Part shown: in pieces, positions 871 to 56,136 of the stretch | Layout: each line of letters opens with the position of its first letter | Position numbering within the stretch: the stretch's first letter is position 1 | From: Sulfurovum indicum | GTDB lineage: Bacteria > Campylobacterota > Campylobacteria > Campylobacterales > Sulfurovaceae | Length of the DNA stretch: 64,000 nt | Assembly: GCF_014931715.1 (NCBI RefSeq) | Contig: NZ_CP063164.1 | Span: 434,001-498,000, forward strand | Direction of reading: 5' to 3' | Program-made: the position numbers and the translations under genes | The notes under the pieces: model-generated | Seen by the model: only the letters and a program-made list of their open reading frames with translations | Told to the model about the DNA's origin: nothing | Database searches by the model: none

Positions 871-3800
871 ATGAAAAAAAATATAGTAGCGATCCTCACA
901 TTTGTATTTGTGTCTGTTCTTGCATTGACTGGATGTGGAAGCACAAGTGGTACAAGTAGTGGAACTGAAACTACGGTTGTGGTGGAGATGCAGGAAAATG
1001 AAATAGTTCTTCAGCCAAATGGTACTGACTTTACTTTATCTCTGCCATTTACCAAGAAACTGGATAGTACGTATCATGTAGAGTTGAATAATTTTACATT
1101 GGCTGTAAGTGAGTGTTCTGTCAGTGTAGGCAGTGTAAGTTTTGCACCAATACCTTTAGTGTTGGACGGGGCATTAAATACACAGGAAATATTGACGATC
1201 AATGGTTCTTTTGACCAAAATTGTACACCGACAGGGTATTCTCTGACCGCAATACAGACTGTGAGTAAAGATAGTCAAACAACAAGTGGAGATATTTCAT
1301 TCACCTATACATATTCCGGTTCTTCCGGAATTGTAGAAAACGGGTATGCCTTTATTAACGCAACAACACCGTTGAATATCGGAGCGTCAAATACAGACTA
1401 TACGATCAGTATGCAGCTGATCAAAGATGGTTTTGTAGCATCCGGTGAAACCGTAGAGCTGAAAGCATTCAGTAATGTGTACGGAAGTATCAAAACAACT
1501 ACAACGTATACTGTTGCAACAGATGCAAACGGTATCGCTGTATTTGATTATGTCTCTCCGGGTACTTTGCCTGCAGACGGTACTACAGCAACTATTACAG
1601 CAGTATTAAAAGATGAAAATGGAACTATAGTTCCAGGTATAGAACAAAATATTGAATTAATTTTTGACCAGAACAGCAATAACAGCGGTATTGACTATAC
1701 TAATTATACGTTTACGGCTATACCATCTGAAATCAATATTACAGAAGGAGGGGCATCAAGGGTTATAGATGTTTATGTCGGGAATAATAATCAGCCGGTT
1801 GCCAATGAACTTGTGAAAGTTGATTACACCTTTACTGCTGATGGTAACGGAACAGTAAACAGCTATGAAGGGTTTACAGATGCAAACGGACATGTAGCGT
1901 TTAATTATACGGCACCGTCAGACATCACCTCTCTTATAGGAACCAGTACTGCTGTAATATTGAGACTTGACGGTAATAGCAGTATTTACAGTACAACCAC
2001 AGTCAACTTTAATACTCCGTCAGGAACCAGCACAGACTACAGTAATTATACGTTTACGGTTATACCATCTGAGATTAATATTACTGAAGGTGGAGTATCA
2101 AGGGTCATAGATGCTTATGTCGGGAATAATAATCAGCCGGTTGCCAATGAAACAGTCACTGTAGATTATGCATTTACTGCAGACGGAAATGGAACAATGA
2201 GCAGCTATACGGCTACCACAGATGCCAACGGACACGTAGCGTTCAACTATACGGCACCGTCAGACATCACCTCTCTTATAGGAACCAGCACAGCAGTGAC
2301 TCTGAGACTTGATAACAATACAAGCATTAACAGTACCACTACGGTTAACTTCAATACCGTGCCTGGAAGTGTTGTTGATTATTCAGGATATACATTGACA
2401 GTACTTTCCAATGAAATGAATATCTCTGAGCCGGGGCAGCAACAAACGATAGACGTATATCTGGAAAATGACAGTAATGGACCGGCAGCAGGTGAGGTTG
2501 TTCTTGTAGACTTCTTTGATGGAACAAAAGGTACAATGAACAGCTTCAGCGGTATAGTGGATGATACGGGACATGTTGCATTTACCTATACTGCTCCTCA
2601 AGATATCAGTGTACTGGATGGCTTTACGATCAGAGTAAGCATGGAGAACAATAGCAGCAAAGAGCAAAATATTGTTATTAATGTGGATACAGCTGTCTAT
2701 ATGATTTATCCGGATGCAAATATAACCGTCACGGATATTTCACAGGTTCATACAATCAAGGTAGCGCTGACAAAACAGGAGGCGGGTGCTACAAGTACCC
2801 TGCCTGCTGTTGGAAAAACGGTGGTAGCCGAATTTATTCAGCCTATATATGGTACTTTGTCTCAATATGAAGCGGTAGTAGGTACTGACGGATATGCAAG
2901 ATTTACCTATACTTCGCCAGAACGTATTCAGGATGTCAATGATACAAATATAACATTCTACTATAAAGAGAACCAGGCTGTTACAGCAAATACGCTTCTT
3001 GTCTATGAAGCACAGAATATAAATATAGTGGAGCAGCTTTTTGTTGTTCCTGATTCGGTGACTATTACAGAAGCGGGAGAGGAGAAAAACATCACCATCA
3101 TTACTGTCAATGCAGATAATGTTGGTATCAGCAGTACTGTAACTATAGAGCAGCCTTTTTATAATGATACGGATTACGGATACTTTACACCAGCCGGACC
3201 GATTACAACAGATGCAAGCGGTAAAGCTGTGATTGTGTATACCGCCCCATCCTCTATAAGCGGATTGAGTGAGAGAAATATTACCATTACAGAGACGAAT
3301 CAAAGCTTGTCCAAAGAGCTTAATATAAAGTATAATCAGGCGACTGGTCCCGGGATTGATTATGCAATTACAGTCCACATACCGGATTCGCTGAGTGTAG
3401 ATAATCTGGATCAGATCACAGTAGTGATACATGAACTGGGTGATGAGACAAGAGTGATAGATGATTCAAATGTGCATGAAGTAAACCTGACAAGCATATT
3501 TACAAATATGCTAACATTTGGCAGCGGTGCAAGTACTGCTACATATGCCAATGCAGGAACACAACCGATAGCGGTAGAAACAAAAACACTCTCGGGTACC
3601 GCAGTCATAGAGGTTAATGCTTCAATCTTTAACGGTGACCAGAATGTCACTATTAATACATTAGTACCGGTCACTATACTTTCCGGACCTGTAAGTGCTA
3701 TGTCACTTGTCTATGTCGGAACAGATATAGATGGTAACACTGGACTGTATAAAAACTACTATACGATTCATGCCGTAGACAAGTATGACAACCCTGCAAG

Positions 3801-4593
3801 AGAGGGGATAACGCTGCATCCTTCTATTATTAACGGTACGAAAGTGATAAAATCTGCCGCAACAACAGGTCAGATTACACAAGGAACACCGGATACTTTT
3901 GATGATGCCACACCAACTGTTTTCAGTACGGTAGACACAAATGATCTATTGGCTATTGTTCCAAATTCCAGCAGTGTGGATAAGCTTTATCTTGGAAACT
4001 GGAGTATTGCAAATGTTATAAGTGACAATCAACTGGAACTGGCAGAAGAGTATACTGGAGCAACTACCAATTCTCTTAGCTATGTTATAGGTAATTCTAA
4101 CAGATATATAGACGGTTATGGTATCGCAACTGTTGATGTCAGAAGCAGGGATGCAGGGTATGTGACAGATGCTGACGGAAATGTCCGACTGGAAGTTACC
4201 TTTGATCCGGTTCTTGCCGGGCATACGGTCACCATTAGTGCAAATGCATATGATGTAAACCGTACAGGTGCAGCAAAAATTGCCGGATTAAGATGGGATG
4301 ACTTCAGCTCTACAACAGAACTGGTACCTAATGATGGAAATGATCATAATGTAACACTTACATTGGGTATCTCTAATTTTCAAGAACTACTGGTTGGTTT
4401 AGATATTGTTCCGTCAAGTATTATAAGCAGTGATGCAGCCTGTGATCTGAATGAGTCTGCTGTAAATGATTTAAGTACTGATGCCAATGGGCAAATAAGA
4501 GTACAGATCTCAACAGGCCTAAGTTCAAGCACGGCAACAGAATGTGAAATCAGCTGGAGTAAAAGTATAAGCGGTATTTACCGGGAATACTGA
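871..4593 (+). CDS. Large surface lipoprotein with Ig-like repeats
   Basis: This 1240-residue protein opens with a lipoprotein signal (lipobox LTGC, Cys at about 22) and a Ser/Thr/Gly-rich linker. Most of the rest is built from Ig-like domains resembling the bacterial Ig group 1 (invasin/intimin) type: each has a P-S-E-I-N-I-T-E opening, a V-A-N-E-turn, a D-A-N-G-H-V-A-F-N-Y-T-A-P core and a closing strand. Three 114-residue units are clear at about residues 275-615, and more diverged ones follow to about 830. The C-terminal third is Ig-like but irregular. Expected location is lipid-anchored at the cell surface, as an adhesin or scaffold. It follows the barrel gene by 18 bases, with AAGGA before the ATG. 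The composition is very Thr/Asn/Ser-rich and low in Cys. Confidence 0.8.
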   Translation: MKKNIVAILTFVFVSVLALTGCGSTSGTSSGTETTVVVEMQENEIVLQPNGTDFTLSLPFTKKLDSTYHVELNNFTLAVSECSVSVGSVSFAPIPLVLDGALNTQEILTINGSFDQNCTPTGYSLTAIQTVSKDSQTTSGDISFTYTYSGSSGIVENGYAFINATTPLNIGASNTDYTISMQLIKDGFVASGETVELKAFSNVYGSIKTTTTYTVATDANGIAVFDYVSPGTLPADGTTATITAVLKDENGTIVPGIEQNIELIFDQNSNNSGIDYTNYTFTAIPSEINITEGGASRVIDVYVGNNNQPVANELVKVDYTFTADGNGTVNSYEGFTDANGHVAFNYTAPSDITSLIGTSTAVILRLDGNSSIYSTTTVNFNTPSGTSTDYSNYTFTVIPSEINITEGGVSRVIDAYVGNNNQPVANETVTVDYAFTADGNGTMSSYTATTDANGHVAFNYTAPSDITSLIGTSTAVTLRLDNNTSINSTTTVNFNTVPGSVVDYSGYTLTVLSNEMNISEPGQQQTIDVYLENDSNGPAAGEVVLVDFFDGTKGTMNSFSGIVDDTGHVAFTYTAPQDISVLDGFTIRVSMENNSSKEQNIVINVDTAVYMIYPDANITVTDISQVHTIKVALTKQEAGATSTLPAVGKTVVAEFIQPIYGTLSQYEAVVGTDGYARFTYTSPERIQDVNDTNITFYYKENQAVTANTLLVYEAQNINIVEQLFVVPDSVTITEAGEEKNITIITVNADNVGISSTVTIEQPFYNDTDYGYFTPAGPITTDASGKAVIVYTAPSSISGLSERNITITETNQSLSKELNIKYNQATGPGIDYAITVHIPDSLSVDNLDQITVVIHELGDETRVIDDSNVHEVNLTSIFTNMLTFGSGASTATYANAGTQPIAVETKTLSGTAVIEVNASIFNGDQNVTINTLVPVTILSGPVSAMSLVYVGTDIDGNTGLYKNYYTIHAVDKYDNPAREGITLHPSIINGTKVIKSAATTGQITQGTPDTFDDATPTVFSTVDTNDLLAIVPNSSSVDKLYLGNWSIANVISDNQLELAEEYTGATTNSLSYVIGNSNRYIDGYGIATVDVRSRDAGYVTDADGNVRLEVTFDPVLAGHTVTISANAYDVNRTGAAKIAGLRWDDFSSTTELVPNDGNDHNVTLTLGISNFQELLVGLDIVPSSIISSDAACDLNESAVNDLSTDANGQIRVQISTGLSSSTATECEISWSKSISGIYREY
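1693..2034 (+). repeat. 342-bp coding repeat, unit 1
   Basis: First of three in-frame 342-bp units in the lipoprotein gene. It starts at a GAC-TAT codon pair and carries TACCATCTGA at 1721-1730. Unit 2 has the same word exactly 342 bases later and is near-identical over long runs. Confidence 0.85.
2035..2376 (+). repeat. 342-bp coding repeat, unit 2
   Basis: Second unit, near-identical to unit 1 over the strands around TACCATCTGA (2063-2072) and the ACGGCACCGTCAGACATCAC core. This suggests recent duplication or gene conversion. Confidence 0.85.
2377..2718 (+). repeat. 342-bp coding repeat, diverged unit 3
   Basis: Third unit in exact 342-bp register (Asp-Tyr at 2377). It is clearly diverged in sequence and carries Ser-Asn-Glu-Met-Asn in place of Pro-Ser-Glu-Ile-Asn. 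Confidence 0.6.
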
Positions 4594-11617: not shown

Positions 11618-11647
11618 GTGAGGAGTGAAGAGTGAAGAGTGAAGAGG
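11618..11647. repeat. Heptamer array (GTGAAGA)
   Basis: About four 7-bp units: GTGAGGA GTGAAGA GTGAAGA GTGAAGA. It sits between hisH and hisA and is followed by the hairpin GTATTGC-TCT-GCAATAC at 11656-11672. Confidence 0.8.
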
Positions 11648-11655
11648 GTTGGTAT

Positions 11656-11672
11656 GTATTGCTCTGCAATAC
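11656..11672. repeat. Hairpin beside heptamer array
   Basis: GTATTGC-TCT-GCAATAC, a 7-bp perfect stem preceded by GGTAT. The same arrangement of array, GGTATGC-like word and hairpin recurs near 42292 and 54728. Confidence 0.6.
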
Positions 11673-11698
11673 TTTTATTGTTTTTTGCATGGTTTTTC

Positions 11699-26285: not shown

Positions 26286-26320
26286 GAATGTTGAATGTTG
26301 AATGTTGCATGTTAAATGAC
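26286..26320. repeat. Heptamer array (GAATGTT)
   Basis: GAATGTT GAATGTT GAATGTT GCATGTT AAATGAC, five 7-bp units just upstream of the DUF2061 fusion gene. It pairs with the array at 26352-26381 across a short core containing AAAAGCATTGTATGG. Confidence 0.8.
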
Positions 26321-26351
26321 AATATTTTTGTAAAAGCATTGTATGGTTGAG

Positions 26352-26381
26352 CATCGACCATCGACCATTGGCTATTGACTA
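26352..26381. repeat. Heptamer array (CATCGAC)
   Basis: CATCGAC CATCGAC CATTGGC TATTGAC TA, ending 7 bases before the last base of cysN. Its word family is the same as the arrays at 27800 and 28225. Confidence 0.8.
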
Positions 26382-26387
26382 AATCTC

Positions 26388-27857
26388 TCAACACTTCTTG
26401 CACTCCCACTCAGGAAAGTTCTCTCTGATATACTGGTTCAGTGCGCGTTCTGCATCGGTGTACTCACGGGCAGAGAGTTTTTTTACATCCTCTTCCCTGC
26501 GGCTGACACCGATGATCATACCGGCACCGACAGTGTTGTTGGTGATACGGTCGATGACGATGAAGGAGCCGGTCAGACGGTTCTCTTTGTAGGCATCTGC
26601 TGCAATGGGCTGTGTCAGTACCATTTTGCATGAAGCGATATCATTGAGGCCTAGTTTGCCGATCTGTTCCCGTTCATAGGTATTGACATCGACTTTATAG
26701 TTGATATGTTCGAAATTCCCAGTTACGACGGAGGTGGCACGTTTGATATCGTAGGTAGTACCTGGCTCCATAGGGGTCTCATCCATCCAAACAAGCATGA
26801 CCTTGAGGGAGTTGGAGACTCTAGGGAGATTTTTGGTATGGACGATCATATTGCCTCTGGAGATATCCACTTCATCCTCGGTGGTAATGGTAACGGCCAT
26901 AGGAGCATAAGCTTCCTCTGTGACGACTTCTCTGTTTGCTTCGGTGATATCGCCTGCATTGATGATATTTTTAACTTTGGTAGTTTTTCCCGAAGGCAGT
27001 ACTGTGATTTCATCGCCTACTTTGACACTGCCTGCAGCAATGGTGCCACAGAAACCTCTGAAATCAAGGTTGGGACGGTTGATATACTGTACAGGAAAAC
27101 GGAAGTCTTCTGTACGCTGTTTTTGAGAGATATCCATCGTATCGAGCAGTTCAAGTAAAGGTTTTCCTTCATACCATGGTGTTTTTTCACTTTTGTCGAC
27201 GACATTGTCTCCGTCAAGAGCGCTGAGGGGGAGATAGTAGGTATATTTAATGCCAAGCTCTTCTGCCAGCTCACTATAGGATGCTTTGATCTCATTGAAT
27301 ATCTCTTGACTGAAATCTACAAGGTCCATCTTGTTGATGGCGACGATAACATGTTCGATACCAAGCAGGTTGACGATGTAGCTGTGTCTTCTTGTCTGAG
27401 TCAAGATACCTTTTCTTGCATCGATGAGGATAATAGCGACATCAGCGGTGGAGGCACCCGTAACCATATTTCGTGTGTACTGCTCATGACCGGGAGTGTC
27501 TGCGATGATGAACTTTCTCCTCTCTGTAGCAAAGAAGCGGTAGGCAACATCAATGGTGATTCCCTGTTCTCGTTCACTTTGAAGACCATCGACAAGCAGA
27601 GCCATATCGATCTTCTCGCCTGTCGTACCGTACTTTTTGCTCTCACCTTTTACGGCTGCAAGCTGGTCATCAAAGATCATCTTTGAGTCATACAGCATAC
27701 GACCGATCAGGGTACTCTTACCATCATCGACCGATCCGCAGGTAAGGAAGCGGAGCATATCCTTGTTCTCGTGCTCTTTGAGATAACCGATGATATCGGA
27801 GTCGATGGTTGATAGTCGATGGTCGTTGGTAATATTGGTTTCTTCTTCTGTTCTCAT
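26388..27857 (-). CDS. cysN: Sulfate adenylyltransferase GTPase subunit
   Basis: Regulatory GTPase of ATP sulfurylase, which with CysD makes APS from sulfate and ATP. The 489 residues follow the EF-Tu-like layout: G1 GSVDDGKST (41-49), G3 DTPGHE (121-126), G4 NKMD (176-179), then beta-barrel domains. It is not fused to CysC. The first ~20 codons are unusual: conserved homology begins at about DIIGYLKEHENKD, while residues 8-20 (NITNDHRLSTIDS) are encoded by a heptamer array (27800-27830) running in frame. The start overlaps the stop of the four-helix-bundle gene (ATGA), so the two are translationally coupled. Confidence 0.95.
   Translation of the reverse strand: MRTEEETNITNDHRLSTIDSDIIGYLKEHENKDMLRFLTCGSVDDGKSTLIGRMLYDSKMIFDDQLAAVKGESKKYGTTGEKIDMALLVDGLQSEREQGITIDVAYRFFATERRKFIIADTPGHEQYTRNMVTGASTADVAIILIDARKGILTQTRRHSYIVNLLGIEHVIVAINKMDLVDFSQEIFNEIKASYSELAEELGIKYTYYLPLSALDGDNVVDKSEKTPWYEGKPLLELLDTMDISQKQRTEDFRFPVQYINRPNLDFRGFCGTIAAGSVKVGDEITVLPSGKTTKVKNIINAGDITEANREVVTEEAYAPMAVTITTEDEVDISRGNMIVHTKNLPRVSNSLKVMLVWMDETPMEPGTTYDIKRATSVVTGNFEHINYKVDVNTYEREQIGKLGLNDIASCKMVLTQPIAADAYKENRLTGSFIVIDRITNNTVGAGMIIGVSRREEDVKKLSAREYTDAERALNQYIRENFPEWECKKC
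27800..27830. repeat. Heptamer array inside cysN N-terminus
   Basis: GTCGATG GTTGATA GTCGATG GTCGTTG, four 7-bp units within the 5' coding part of cysN. Words are the reverse complement of the CATCGAC family at 26352 and the CGACCAT family at 28225. Confidence 0.75.
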
Positions 27858-28207
27858 GACTCCATATCCTTTTTAATGGAATTAATCAGTGCACTTAGCA
27901 TTTTACCGATTATTTCAAGTTCTGTAATCCAAGTTTGACCTTTTTCTTTAGGAATATAATATATTTTGATACCTATATAAATTTGTGTTTTTGCTTCAGC
28001 AAGGGAAGCTCTGGCTATATCTAAAAATCTTATCTTTTCTTGATCAGATATACGTTCCAACCCCTCTGCAATATTACTGGGAATAGAAAGTCCTGATCGA
28101 GTTAATTGATCCCTAAAGCCATAATCTTTAAGTTCAGATAAATTCAAATAGATATCTGCACTTAATGCAGCTGATTTTTTCCAAACATCTAAACTTTCAC
28201 ACTTCAT
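27854..28207 (-). CDS. Four-helix-bundle protein (S23/Avd-like)
   Basis: A 117-residue all-helical protein of the family first known from 23S rRNA intervening sequences and related in fold to the Avd accessory protein of diversity-generating retroelements. Marks: LDVWKKSAALSADIY, FRDQLTRSGLSIPSNIAEGLER (the family's most conserved segment, about 32-53), FLDIARASLAEAKTQI, and a final amphipathic helix. Members form positively charged pentameric barrels thought to bind nucleic acid. It sits between cysD and cysN, normally adjacent, and is bracketed by oppositely oriented heptamer arrays (27800-27830 and 28225-28255), suggesting insertion as a unit. AAGGA precedes its ATG. Confidence 0.88.
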   Translation of the reverse strand: MKCESLDVWKKSAALSADIYLNLSELKDYGFRDQLTRSGLSIPSNIAEGLERISDQEKIRFLDIARASLAEAKTQIYIGIKIYYIPKEKGQTWITELEIIGKMLSALINSIKKDMES

Positions 28208-28224
28208 TTTTTTCCTTTAATATA

Positions 28225-28255
28225 CTAACGACCATTGACTAATGGCTGTCGACTA
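28225..28255. repeat. Heptamer array (CGACCAT/TGACTAA)
   Basis: CTAACGA CCATTGA CTAATGG CTGTCGA CTA. It lies between cysD and the four-helix-bundle gene and supplies the cysD stop codon (TAG on the minus strand at 28253-28255). Confidence 0.7.
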
Positions 28256-38171: not shown

Positions 38172-38384
38172 AGTGTTGTTTCCTGACACGATACTCTATC
38201 TTGACATAGTGCCAGGATTTGGTATGGTGAGGGAGTATTGCACCCTATACCAAAACCCGGTTTTAAAGTTCTTGGAAGAGGAAGCTTCAGTCCCGAATAT
38301 GTAAAGTCTGTTTCAACTGTATGTTGAGAGTGAAGCCCCCGATTCTATTTAAAAATAGAAGCCTTTCAAAGAAAAGCTTATAAA

Positions 38385-38415
38385 ATTATTCATTATTCAT
38401 TACTAATTACTAAAT
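38385..38415. repeat. Heptamer array (ATTCATT)
   Basis: ATTATTC ATTATTC ATTACTA ATTACTA AAT, four to five 7-bp units ending 8 bases before the trpS -10. Confidence 0.75.
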
Positions 38416-41451: not shown

Positions 41452-42234
41452 TTAAAGTGTAATATTTTCAATAGGAAAGGTATATCCAAGAAGATATTGA
41501 ACAGACTTCATGTCAATATCTCCTGTGGTATAAAGCTTGAGGATAAGATGTCCATTATTGCTATAACCGTTTTGCAGTCCAAGGGAGAGAAGACGTTTTG
41601 CAATGGCATCTCCAGTATGGATAAGTGTCAGTCTGCGCTCCATGATCTTCTCTATGAGATTACTGACAAGCGGATAGTGCGTACAGCCAAGTACAATTGT
41701 ATCGACATCTGTATCACGCATAGGGTGAAGCCAGTTTTCCAACATCTTCTCGGTCTCATGATGATCGCTCTTTCCTTTTTCGATCTGCTCTACCAAGCCG
41801 GGACATGCCTGTTCAAAGAGTGTGACATCCTTCTTTTTGGCATGTCTGTTGACAAGCTGCTGGTACTTTTCACTTTTAAGTGTAGCAGGTGTTGCCAAAA
41901 CTCCAACATTTCCCGTTCGTGTCTGTTTGATTGCCGGTTTGATCCCCGGCTCTGTTCCTACGATGATCAGACTAGGATAAGTCTCTCTAAGGACAGTTAT
42001 TGCGGCGGATGTTGCAGTATTACAGGCAATCACCAGTGCATCGATCTGATGGTTTTCAATAAAGTAGTCTGTAATGTCAAGAGAGTATTGAAGGATCTCT
42101 TCTGTAGTTTTCTCTCCGTAAGGTGCGTGTTTGGTATCAGCAATGTAGAAAAGTTCGGTACCTTTGAGAAGATTGAGAATAGACTTGACAACTGTAAGCC
42201 CGCCAAGACCGGAGTCGAAAACGCCGACTCTCAT
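41452..42234 (-). CDS. murI: Glutamate racemase
   Basis: Makes D-glutamate for peptidoglycan. The 260 residues show FDSGLGGLTV (6-15), the first catalytic Cys in IACNTATSAA (about 70), the second in LGCTHYPLV (about 183), and ADTKHAPYGEK. No strong ribosome site is visible, but GGGG-CTA-CCCC directly before the ATG forms a small hairpin. It lies 170 bases downstream of rho on the same strand, with a heptamer element in the gap. Confidence 0.95.
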   Translation of the reverse strand: MRVGVFDSGLGGLTVVKSILNLLKGTELFYIADTKHAPYGEKTTEEILQYSLDITDYFIENHQIDALVIACNTATSAAITVLRETYPSLIIVGTEPGIKPAIKQTRTGNVGVLATPATLKSEKYQQLVNRHAKKKDVTLFEQACPGLVEQIEKGKSDHHETEKMLENWLHPMRDTDVDTIVLGCTHYPLVSNLIEKIMERRLTLIHTGDAIAKRLLSLGLQNGYSNNGHLILKLYTTGDIDMKSVQYLLGYTFPIENITL

Positions 42235-42255
42235 GGGGTAGCCCCATGTGCGAAA

Positions 42256-42277
42256 GAGAAATGAAGAATGAAGAAGG
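42256..42277. repeat. Heptamer array (ATGAAGA)
   Basis: GAGAA ATGAAGA ATGAAGA AGG, about three units. It forms the left side of a composite element whose right side is the inverted array at 42357-42384. Confidence 0.7.
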
Positions 42278-42291
42278 AACTATTCTGGTAT

Positions 42292-42344
42292 GCATTGTGG
42301 TGCAATGCTTCTTTTTTTAAAAAAAAGCTTTTCGTATGAAAAGC
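42292..42344. repeat. Hairpin core of the rho-murI composite element
   Basis: GCATTG-TGGTG-CAATGC (42292-42308) and GCTTTTC-GTAT-GAAAAGC (42327-42344), two hairpins separated by T and A runs, between opposed heptamer arrays. Confidence 0.65.
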
Positions 42345-42356
42345 ATAGTTATGTGC

Positions 42357-42384
42357 CTCATTCCTCATACCTCATTCCTCATTT
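42357..42384. repeat. Heptamer array (CTCATTC)
   Basis: CTCATTC CTCATAC CTCATTC CTCATTT, four 7-bp units in the opposite sense to the array at 42256. Confidence 0.85.
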
Positions 42385-42407
42385 GATCAAAGCTTTTGCT
42401 TTGATCA
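42384..42407 (-). terminator. Hairpin at the rho stop codon
   Basis: TGATCAAAGC-TTTT-GCTTTGATCA is a perfect 10-bp stem that includes the rho stop codon. No U tract follows on either strand, so terminator function is uncertain. Confidence 0.4.
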
Positions 42408-54295: not shown

Positions 54296-54688
54296 ATGGC
54301 GACACGACATCAGGCACGAACAGCGGTAGTAGGGCTGCTTTATGCATATGATCTAGGTAATGAGAATATTGCCAAATTCTCCGATGAGATCCTCGAAGAG
54401 GATAAAATACGTAACAAGCAAAGGGAATTTTCCCATCAGCTTTTTAACGGAACGATCGAAAATCTTGAAATAATTGACGAAGAGATCAAAAAGCATCTCA
54501 AAGAGTGGGACTATGATGCCGTTGGAAAAGTAGAAAAAGCTATTTTGCGCCTGGGAGCTTATGAGATCCTTGTCGCAAAAACGGATAGGGCGATCATTAT
54601 TAATGAAGCTGTTGAACTTGCCAAGGCTTTGGCGGATGACAAGTCTCCAAGATTTATTAACGGTGTACTGGATGCTATTGGAAAATAA
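54296..54688 (+). CDS. nusB: Transcription antitermination protein NusB
   Basis: A 130-residue helical RNA-binding protein that, with NusE, forms the rRNA antitermination complex. ATRHQARTAVVGLLYAYD at the N-terminus, LKEWDYDAVGKVEKAILRLGAYE and NEAVELAKALADDKSPRFINGVLD are standard. AAAGG lies 8-9 bases before the ATG. It is separated from ribH by a heptamer array. Confidence 0.95.
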   Translation: MATRHQARTAVVGLLYAYDLGNENIAKFSDEILEEDKIRNKQREFSHQLFNGTIENLEIIDEEIKKHLKEWDYDAVGKVEKAILRLGAYEILVAKTDRAIIINEAVELAKALADDKSPRFINGVLDAIGK

Positions 54689-54702
54689 GTTTTCCAATAG
54701 CA

Positions 54703-54721
54703 GGTGAATAATGAATAATTG
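54703..54721. repeat. Heptamer array (GTGAATA)
   Basis: GTGAATA ATGAATA ATTG, left side of a composite element between nusB and mqnC. Confidence 0.6.
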
Positions 54722-54727
54722 AGGTAT

Positions 54728-54804
54728 GCGTTTTCCAGAACGCTTTGATTTTATAAAGGATATATAAATGACAACAGATAAAAACACTTTGCCAAAATGC
54801 AAAG
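54728..54804. repeat. Hairpin core of the nusB-mqnC composite element
   Basis: GCGTT-TTCCAG-AACGC (54728-54743), preceded by GGTAT, and CTTTGC-CAAAAT-GCAAAG (54787-54804), lying between opposed heptamer arrays. Confidence 0.65.
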
Positions 54805-54808
54805 CAAT

Positions 54809-54842
54809 ATCATTCAGCATTCAGCATTCACTATTCATCATT
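54809..54842. repeat. Heptamer array (CATTCAG)
   Basis: CATTCAG CATTCAG CATTCAC TATTCAT CATT, in the opposite sense to the array at 54703. Immediately followed by the mqnC SD hairpin. Confidence 0.8.
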
Positions 54843-54843
54843 A

Positions 54844-54862
54844 AAAACTCCAAAGGAGTTTT
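54844..54862 (+). promoter_or_regulatory. Hairpin sequestering the mqnC ribosome site
   Basis: AAAACTCC-AAA-GGAGTTTT, a perfect 8-bp stem whose 3' arm contains GGAG, the Shine-Dalgarno sequence 7 bases before the GTG start. When folded it should lower translation initiation; heat or a bound factor could open it. Four T residues after GGAG could also make it a weak terminator for nusB. Confidence 0.5.
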
Positions 54863-54865
54863 CCT

Positions 54866-55930
54866 GTGACAATAAATATGACAAAACGCATGTCAATAGA
54901 CGAAGCAGTAGAGCTTATAGAAAATGCAGACTTGAAAACTCTGGGCAGGATGGCACTGGAGAAGAAGCGTGAACTGCATCCCAAAAAAGTAACCACATTT
55001 GTGGTAGACCGAAATATCAACTATACCAATATCTGCTGGGTGGACTGCAAGTTCTGTGCTTTCTATACACATGAGAAAAAAGAGGATGCCTATATTCTCT
55101 CTTTTGATGAGATCGATCAGAAGATCGAAGAGCTGCTTGCCATCGGCGGAACACAGATACTTTTTCAGGGAGGAGTACACCCCAAGCTTGAAATAGAGTG
55201 GTATGAAGAGCTGGTGGAGCATATCCATAACAAATATCCGCAGGTAACTATCCACGGTTTCTCGGCGATAGAGATAGACTATATTGCCCGTCGTTCCAGC
55301 CTGGGCATTTCAGAAGTACTTGCCCGTCTCAAAGCAAAAGGGCTCAGTTCAATTCCCGGGGCTGGTGCTGAGATACTCTCAGACAGGGTACGTGATATTA
55401 TTGCCCCCAAGAAACTTGATAAAGATACATGGCTTGAAGTACATAGAGAGGCACATAAACTGGGCATAAAGTCGACGGCAACGATGATGTATGGAACAGT
55501 AGAGACCACACGGGAGATCGTTGAGCACTGGGATTATATACGTCAGCTTCAGGATGAGACAGGCGGATTCAGAGCATTCATTATGTGGTCATACCAGAGT
55601 GATAACACACAGCTTAAGCGTGAACTGCCGACCATTACCAAAACAACTTCCAATCAATATCTACGCTATCTGGCAGTAGCAAGACTCTTTTTGGATAATG
55701 TTCCCAATATTCAGAGTTCATGGGTGACACAGGGAAGTTATATCGGGCAGATGGCGCTGCTTTTTGGTGCGAATGATCTTGGTTCTACAATGATGGAAGA
55801 GAATGTAGTCTCAGCTGCAGGAGCAAAGAACCAAATGAACCAGGAAGAGATGATACGCCTTATTAAAGATATTGGTGAGAATCCGGCAAAGAGGAATACG
55901 GCGTATGAGATACTTGAGCGTTACTATTAA
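54866..55930 (+). CDS. mqnC: Cyclic dehypoxanthinyl futalosine synthase
   Basis: Radical-SAM enzyme of the futalosine pathway to menaquinone, cyclising dehypoxanthinyl futalosine. The 354 residues show the radical-SAM cluster CWVDCKFC (C57, C61, C64) after TNI, the SAM-binding GGTQILFQGG, HGFSAIEIDY, and QSSWVTQGSYIG, where MqnC differs from MqnE. GTG start with GGAG 7 bases ahead, within a hairpin. Menaquinone made this way fits Campylobacterota, which lack the classical Men route. MqnE is the main alternative; the absence of an N-terminal extension favours MqnC. Confidence 0.88.
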   Translation: MTINMTKRMSIDEAVELIENADLKTLGRMALEKKRELHPKKVTTFVVDRNINYTNICWVDCKFCAFYTHEKKEDAYILSFDEIDQKIEELLAIGGTQILFQGGVHPKLEIEWYEELVEHIHNKYPQVTIHGFSAIEIDYIARRSSLGISEVLARLKAKGLSSIPGAGAEILSDRVRDIIAPKKLDKDTWLEVHREAHKLGIKSTATMMYGTVETTREIVEHWDYIRQLQDETGGFRAFIMWSYQSDNTQLKRELPTITKTTSNQYLRYLAVARLFLDNVPNIQSSWVTQGSYIGQMALLFGANDLGSTMMEENVVSAAGAKNQMNQEEMIRLIKDIGENPAKRNTAYEILERYY

Positions 55931-55940
55931 CGCTCAAAAT

Positions 55941-55967
55941 GAATCATTAATAGTGAATAATGAATAG
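55941..55967. repeat. Heptamer array (GTGAATA)
   Basis: Degenerate units GAATCAT TAATAGT GAATAAT GAATAG, left side of a composite element downstream of mqnC. Confidence 0.6.
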
Positions 55968-55973
55968 CTGATG

Positions 55974-56054
55974 TATGCGGTGCAGTGGTTCCGTTTTTTA
56001 TCATATGGAGGTAAATATGAATGTAATTTTAATGAAAGCATTTCAACGAAATGC
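55974..56054. repeat. Hairpin core of the mqnC-M16 composite element
   Basis: Begins GTATGCGG and ends with GCATTT-CAACG-AAATGC (56038-56054). Position and spacing match the cores at 42292 and 54728. Confidence 0.6.
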
Positions 56055-56062
56055 AAACCGAT

Positions 56063-56094
56063 ACTATTCACTATTCACTATTCACTATTCACTA
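56063..56094. repeat. Heptamer array (ACTATTC)
   Basis: ACTATTC ACTATTC ACTATTC ACTATTC ACTA, four perfect 7-bp units, in the opposite sense to the array at 55941. Confidence 0.9.
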
Positions 56095-56136
56095 AAAAAT
56101 ATCATCGCAATGATATTTTTACTACAAGGATTATTA

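Follow-up and report, generated by a model that had tools for sequence, protein, structure and literature searches.

Three heptamer-array loci of Sulfurovum indicum as probable gene-less copies of an intervening-sequence-type mobile element

Introduction

Among described systems, the intervening sequences (IVSs) of 23S rRNA come closest to the elements reported here. The IVS of Coxiella burnetii has terminal inverted repeats, an S23p open reading frame (ORF), cutting by RNase III, and GACAGAT heptamers of variable number (PMC4990558). For this study, a window of 64,000 nucleotides from Sulfurovum indicum was analysed (G000:C1:434001-498000; the host genome, G000, is a single contig of 2.21 Mb), in which three loci, at 42256-42384, 54703-54842 and 55941-56094, consist of opposed heptamer arrays around hairpins. 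These loci are probably short, gene-less versions of an IVS-type mobile element, the full-length form of which carries a four-helix-bundle (4HB) gene of family PF05635 (23S_rRNA_IVP).

As in 23S rRNA IVSs, the elements combine a PF05635 ORF, a terminal inverted-repeat stem with the gene in its loop, and insertion in transcribed DNA; as in the Coxiella IVS, heptamers of variable number stand upstream of the ORF. The verdict reached here is an element of the IVS/S23p kind, but one that departs from 23S IVSs in several respects: it lies outside rRNA, in many copies per genome, with gene-less short forms far outnumbering gene-bearing ones, and its heptamer arrays stand at both ends, match each other in a locus-specific word, and are accompanied by GGTWTGC hairpins and host-derived junction hairpins. 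Because the elements are located at protein-gene junctions, and no 23S rRNA signatures adjoined the 4HB loci, they are not 23S IVSs themselves and share only a common kind with them; we take 23S IVSs and 4HB array loci to be one kind of element.

Other systems resemble the elements in part. REPINs, the doublets of repetitive extragenic palindromic (REP) sequences, and their RAYT transposases (PMC3116915, PMC2817692) offer a parallel: they too are intergenic and numerous, and consist of short hairpins paired in inverse orientation, with a conserved word next to the stem. The GTAG/GGAG-type tetranucleotide of REPINs holds a place similar to that of GGTWTGC, which precedes and enters the hairpin; the words differ. 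Unlike REPINs, the elements have heptamer arrays outside the hairpins and enclose a 4HB gene rather than a Y1 transposase. Like miniature inverted-repeat transposable elements (MITEs), they are short, gene-less, and numerous, with mirror-image ends and a longer gene-bearing partner that shares those ends; unlike MITEs, their partner encodes PF05635 and no recognised transposase, and their end repeats are tandem heptamers with a locus-specific word. Intergenic period-7 arrays are also found in the short tandemly repeated repetitive (STRR) sequences of cyanobacteria and the TAACTGA repeats of Beggiatoaceae (PMC4679880). The latter, unlike the present arrays, repeat one word almost always in direct orientation, and most have no partner of inverse sense. 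Across bacteria, annotation of PF05635 proteins stops at 'four helix bundle protein' of unknown function, and the period-7 repeats of bacterial genomes have had no known origin.

Results

An earlier note on the window, made from the letters alone, had reported a layout of heptamer array, hairpins, and inverse array at the three loci. Reading of the sequence bore this out, as did a model of the element end (R1, comprising array, GGTWTGC, and hairpin), whereby an inward-facing end was found on either side of each locus: 42257-42316(+)/42319-42379(-), 54704-54751(+)/54776-54835(-) and 55942-55996(+)/56030-56089(-). These matches are partly by construction, because some window ends belonged to the R1 training set. 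The period-7 survey of G000 comprised a model search and 464 kb of sampled stretches, which held 36 period-7 arrays versus 0-6 for periods 5, 6, and 8-11. When ends were read from arrays adjoining GGTATG or GGTTTGC, left and right proved to be one mirror-image design: (AGTGAAT-type)n, about 3 nt, GGTWTGC, a hairpin of 7 bp with a 3-4-nt loop, and TTTTATT.

The hairpin of this design covaries. An alignment of 26 ends gave both-side changes in 6 of 7 stem pairs (36 cells, versus 11.9 after shuffling and no more than 16 in slid controls), and 84 model matches gave them in all 7 (115 cells versus 33); because the first set was picked partly by hairpin and the second by the model, these figures lean towards structure. 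Ends picked on array and GGTATG alone had mostly the same hairpins. RNA folding of the three window loci was far from chance (z -4.6, -6.5, and -4.7), and the predicted fold of each consists of a host hairpin, a long array stem with the inner hairpins in its loop, and a second host hairpin, the opposed arrays base-pairing as a terminal complementary stem. The earlier note had proposed selected folding rather than selected sequence. Folding was upheld, both by the GGTWTGC hairpin and by orthologous junction hairpins that change on both arms, and the covariation check proposed in that note returned covariation and a layout conserved in other copies, not the absence of the two that was to speak against it. 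In addition, the ends are conserved in sequence (GGTWTGC and AGTGAAT-type words), which that note had missed.

The same two ends enclose a PF05635 gene at G000:C1:314588-315077. Further full-length copies have an R1 end on both sides (L016, L062, and L282) or on one side (L052 and L069). R1 ends stand beside one 4HB clade only (6 of 11 versus 0 of 19, p 0.0008; none of 500 label shuffles was as clustered). The PF05635 ORF is absent from the short window copies, as it is from ORF-less IVSs. Since the full-length copies share their ends and enclose the 4HB gene, the window loci look like gene-less (MITE-like), internally deleted, non-autonomous forms of the 4HB element. Relatives in the PDB are 2gsc (XCC0516) and 2rld, both uncharacterised; according to PMC4990558, which cites Lin et al. 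2006, XCC0516 is a homopentamer of four-helix bundles. Elsewhere in the host genome (L028 7190-7615; G000:C1:245190-245615), a 4HB gene lies between AAGTAGG/CTACTTT arrays without GGTWTGC hairpins, and the distal array supplies the N-terminal codons of a gene resembling a TilS-type ATP pyrophosphatase.

Copy number was high and patchy. With no more than 150 candidates scored per genome, at least 84 ends were counted in G000, 102 in G002, 100 in G009, and 55 in G001, with at least 0-7 in the other nine genomes of the genus and at least 10 in one genome of another family. End counts track 4HB gene counts in the genus (Spearman 0.82, 13 genomes, uncorrected for phylogeny).

Empty sites, for which the earlier note had suggested looking in close relatives, were found. 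In relatives such as G005, G006, G007, G011, and G012, nusB and mqnC are separated by only a short junction; the window element is present there in G000 alone, and G009, G002, and G010 have different insertions. The mqnC-M16 junction is short in G006 and G012; G000, G009, and G002 all carry an element there, and in the last two a second one is nested. At cysD-cysN, the two genes overlap stop to start in G003 and G012, a single heptamer array intervenes in G002 and G009, and G000 has a 4HB gene between arrays. The latter gene lies within the window (27854..28207, minus strand), as do a degenerate period-7 array on its cysD side (28224..28253, minus) and an inverse period-7 array on its cysN side that is read into the CysN N-terminus (27801..27832, minus). 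The search for a target-site duplication was not systematic; none was evident when the sites at nusB-mqnC and cysD-cysN were read.

The strongest case for movement between sites is that of L016 (G000) and L062 (G001), which encode sister 4HB proteins (support 100/99) at unrelated sites. The two share 77.8% identity over 1395-1897/1403-1900, a span from array to array, with no homology beyond it. L062 sits at the site orthologous to L017, the 4HB of which is only 61% identical to its own. The tree is in conflict with location, as would be expected if the element is mobile. It is from such comparison of sites that the movement step is read, and on it the elements are mobile over evolutionary time. 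Sampled elements lay between codirectional genes in 19 of 22 cases, with 3 convergent and 0 divergent (background 258/66/60; p ~0.06). In relatives, the nusB-mqnC-M16 region (L071, L072, L075, L077, L078, L079, and L080) also bears other insertions, the inverted pairs GTAGGGTG...CACCCTAC and CTCGTTCCCACG...CGTGGGAACGAG, which resemble REPINs; operon junctions seem to be shared landing sites here.

At both ends of all three window loci, the adjoining host DNA formed an extra hairpin. Across 105 ends from four genomes of the genus, a perfect junction stem of at least 7 bp in host DNA abutting the array was present at 43.8% versus 1.0% of controls, and one of at least 10 bp at 23.8% versus 0.2%. 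These hairpins often finish at the first base of the array; the longest is CAAGATAAGGGTTTTC-ATT-GAAAACCCTTATCTTG, directly followed by AGTGAAT (L224). At orthologous places, paired arms change together, as counted by eye: L234/L249 have two compensatory changes, L225/L267 two and one break, and L071/L072 one together with two wobble pairs, and loops vary. At mqnC and ispG-dnaB, the fold-back draws on different host stretches in different genomes. Pre-existing gene-end hairpins as the target were rejected, because gene stops away from elements have a stem of at least 8 bp in 0.6% of cases (2 of 340, one of them beside another heptamer array) and because the inner arm of the hairpin at 54673..54702 is missing from the empty nusB-mqnC sites of relatives. 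Two origins are considered for the hairpin. Selection in RNA, with the inner arm tracking the coding arm, is favoured by the wobble pairs; copying from the host strand, whether on integration or afterwards, is favoured by exact abutment, 3-nt loops, and arms of up to 16 bp. The junction hairpins seen in this genus are a new feature.

At nusB-mqnC, the left junction hairpin TGCTATTGGAAAA-TAAG-TTTTCCAATAGCA (54673..54702) has the nusB 3' end as its outer arm and the nusB stop codon in its loop. It is followed on the plus strand by a TGAATAA-type heptamer array (54703..54722) and by GGTATGC with hairpin GCGTTTTCCAGAACGC (54723..54743), part of an R1 match and of the hairpin type that covaries. 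The mirror-image end, on the minus strand, consists of hairpin CTTTGC/GCAAAG and a degenerate GGTWTGC position (54787..54810), then a CATTCAG-type array of inverse sense (54811..54842), after which the right junction hairpin AAAACTCC-AAA-GGAGTTTT (54844..54862) lies upstream of mqnC. The locus downstream of mqnC opens with junction hairpin TTGAGCGTTA-CTAT-TAACGCTCAA at the mqnC 3' end (55914..55937), an AATGAAT-type array (55938..55968, plus), and TGTATGC with a decayed hairpin (55972..55992, plus), where G009 and G002 keep an intact GCGGTGC/GCGCCGC. Its minus-strand end comprises hairpin GCATTTCAACGAAATGC with a reverse-strand GGTTTGC (56038..56059) and a perfect ACTATTC array of 4.6 units (56063..56094), and the right junction hairpin is AAAAATATCAT-CGCA-ATGATATTTTT (56095..56120). 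The third ORF-less element (42257..42379) has an array, a GGTATGC hairpin from 42287, a second hairpin, and an inverse array up to 42383, between junction hairpins CATGGGG-TAG-CCCCATG (42232..42248) and TGATCAAAGC-TTTT-GCTTTGATCA (42384..42407).

Short frames start inside these elements. One at 54768-54869 crosses the right array, and its TGA overlaps the GTG start of mqnC; another runs from 56017 through the right array and is fused to the M16 peptidase gene; a minus-strand frame, 42200-42345, begins inside the gene-less element and meets the start of gene 41452-42234. Translational coupling to the next gene is possible. Right arrays contain no stop codons, however, so frames reading through them are likely anyway, and because these run to the next start codon, an insertion can be tolerated in an operon.

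Beyond the genus, 4HB loci were sampled by scanning with seven 4HB proteins and keeping the best 80 loci carrying the motif [VL]S[IV]PSNIAE, a biased sample of PF05635 that was adopted because a mixed alignment of 20 4HB sequences was too diverse for a genome scan. Period-7 arrays lay within 160 nt of the 4HB gene in 28 of 78 upstream and 29 of 78 downstream flanks, versus 1 of 73 and 1 of 74 in the far-flank control. Period 8 was seen in 10 upstream and 7 downstream flanks, and other periods in 0-2, except 14, which is the double unit. Upstream and downstream flanks were inverted copies of one another above the 99th percentile of mismatched pairs at 36 of 78 loci. Where both arrays were readable (39 loci), their words matched in at least 6 of 7 positions within the locus in 69%, the figure being 4% for comparisons between loci and 13% for direct orientation; examples are AGACCTT/AGACCTT (L163), AGTGGTT/AGTGGTT (L132), and, with period 8, AGTTTCAA/AGTTTCAA (L160). 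Opposed arrays of period 8 (L131, L140, L160, L176, and L179) or 9 (L175) also match on both sides. Six plasmid loci reached through a clade-2 protein fit the pattern, from Treponema, Euhalothece, Bernardetia, Nostoc, Anabaena (weakly), and Dolichospermum, of which those of Nostoc and Dolichospermum have perfect opposed TAATTCG arrays around their 4HB genes. PF05635 loci in many phyla thus stand between mirror-image heptamer or octamer arrays, the word being particular to the locus. Among open-licence PMC papers, none was found that had already described opposed heptamer arrays flanking 4HB genes outside rRNA. Junction hairpins were not supported as a general trait of 4HB elements, as among the other-phyla loci only L146 has a strong one and they are rare outside the order. 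In a separate observation, the 4HB gene of L292 (Anabaena cylindrica PCC 7122 plasmid pANACY.01, 155003-156550) lies between cas2 and cas1. Three things are absent from the earlier note: that the loci are gene-less forms of a 4HB-gene element, that the array rule is common to other phyla, and that host hairpins form the outermost layer.

Discussion

A mechanism may be proposed in which copies sit in transcribed gene junctions and the two arrays base-pair in the transcript to form a long stem, the loop of which contains the hairpins or the gene. By analogy with the IVSs of 23S rRNA, this stem would be an RNase III substrate and the insertion would be trimmed from the transcript and tolerated, a proposal for which we consider the chances evenly balanced. 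Because the 4HB clade matches the ends, the 4HB protein is the best candidate for mobility, and we suggest tentatively, with some doubt, that it acts in trans on cognate ends as a specificity factor for both gene-bearing and gene-less copies. A further puzzle is how one word is kept at both ends although it is itself free to change; slippage, together with exchange between the inverted arrays, could homogenise them. Host junction hairpins, for their part, might cap the trimmed mRNA ends, or remain from fold-back copying of the host strand.

The results connect PF05635 proteins with period-7 repeats: the termini of an IVS-type mobile element can take the form of such arrays, and 23S rRNA would be only one landing site; the old guess of IVS mobility becomes testable with a candidate protein and ready short substrates. 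A wider proposition is that PF05635 genes define a widespread class of minimal mobile elements, the heptamer ends of which match each other in a locus-specific word, and that integration in this genus includes copying each host end by fold-back (3-4-nt loop, 7-16-bp arms) before the array. We think this unlikely, but if true it would imply an integration route unlike those of DDE transposases, HUH enzymes, and group II introns.

Several points weigh against the assignment to a mobile 4HB element. Movement and RNA trimming are inferred here from sequence, PF05635 has no recognised catalytic domain or known catalytic activity, and no known IVS includes junction hairpins. Of the 78 other-phyla loci, about half did not exceed the inverted-repeat threshold. 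G007 and G012 have 6-7 ends and no detected 4HB gene, both assemblies being incomplete, and the count of Y1 genes is also weakly correlated with end counts (Spearman 0.56).

This last correlation bears on the best-surviving alternative, that the GGTWTGC hairpins are REP-like and spread as inverted pairs by a resident Y1 (TnpA-REP-like) transposase, with arrays and 4HB genes as passengers. The short conserved word 5' of the hairpin and the inverted pairing do resemble REPINs (PMC3116915), four Y1 genes are present in G000, and relatives have other REP-like elements (GTAGGGTG..CACCCTAC). Yet no GGTWTGC ends were found in the G000 stretches holding the four resident Y1 genes, one of which is flanked by GTAGGGG-type hairpins, as for REPs of its own; nine Y1 genes go with 7 ends in G012, and one Y1 gene with 102 ends in G002; and the GGTWTGC ends enclose 4HB genes. 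With the Y1 flanks devoid of ends and the genome counts ambiguous, Y1/RAYT was rejected as the driver, and we consider this alternative quite improbable. Directly upstream of one Y1 transposase gene (L008 900-1450; G000:C1:about 1046720-1047270) is a CRISPR-like array with a 36-bp repeat, ATTATAGCGTATTTGTGTGGGGAAGGGTGCTATAAC, and ~30-bp spacers.

It could also be imagined that the element RNA is copied to DNA by a reverse transcriptase, with 4HB as an Avd-like partner. PF05635 is related to Avd, the 4HB protein of diversity-generating retroelements (a weak bAvd match, E 3e-5, below the cut-off), and the junction fold-backs would suit template switching. Unlike a diversity-generating retroelement, the host genome, 99.98% complete, has no RVT_1 gene, and none was detected in G002, the genome with most ends; the search covered RVT_1 only, so that an enzyme lost since, or one outside RVT_1, is possible. 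Movement by reverse transcription was rejected and appears very unlikely.

The earlier note had offered a structured RNA or a small element. In its immobile form, the former would be a fixed RNA or a regulatory operon junction, its folding selected for mRNA processing and the likeness among loci due to convergence. Covariation, strong folds, compensatory changes in junction hairpins, and the codirectional setting are what such an RNA would display, and a function may have been acquired after insertion. Against it stand the empty sites, the high but patchy copy number, the nested copies, and the occurrence of one element at unrelated sites, and we consider an immobile RNA very improbable. No Rfam match was obtained for the loci, and a free-standing structured RNA is hypothetical; of the two options, the small element is the one preferred here, on copy number, patchiness, empty sites, and movement from site to site. 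Ordinary slippage-made tandem repeats without any element would account for copy number and words that differ between relatives at the same junction, but slippage does not produce opposed orientation, a fixed GGTWTGC spacing, covarying hairpins, or a shared gene, and this reading is refuted.

Other features of the window

The earlier note had listed 11618-11672 and 26286-26381 as partial forms. The first is a true single end, with an AGTGAAG array, GGTATGT, and a hairpin (11621..11680, plus strand, R1 match). The second, two degenerate arrays downstream of cysN (26286..26381), gave no R1 match and is a poor member; the same junction holds a clear array pair with another word in G002 and G009 and is empty in G003 and G012. 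A further single end, absent from the earlier list, was matched by R1 at 38353..38411 on the minus strand. Within the long ORF 871-4593, positions 1693-2357 consist of two tandem units of 342 bp with 82% matches.
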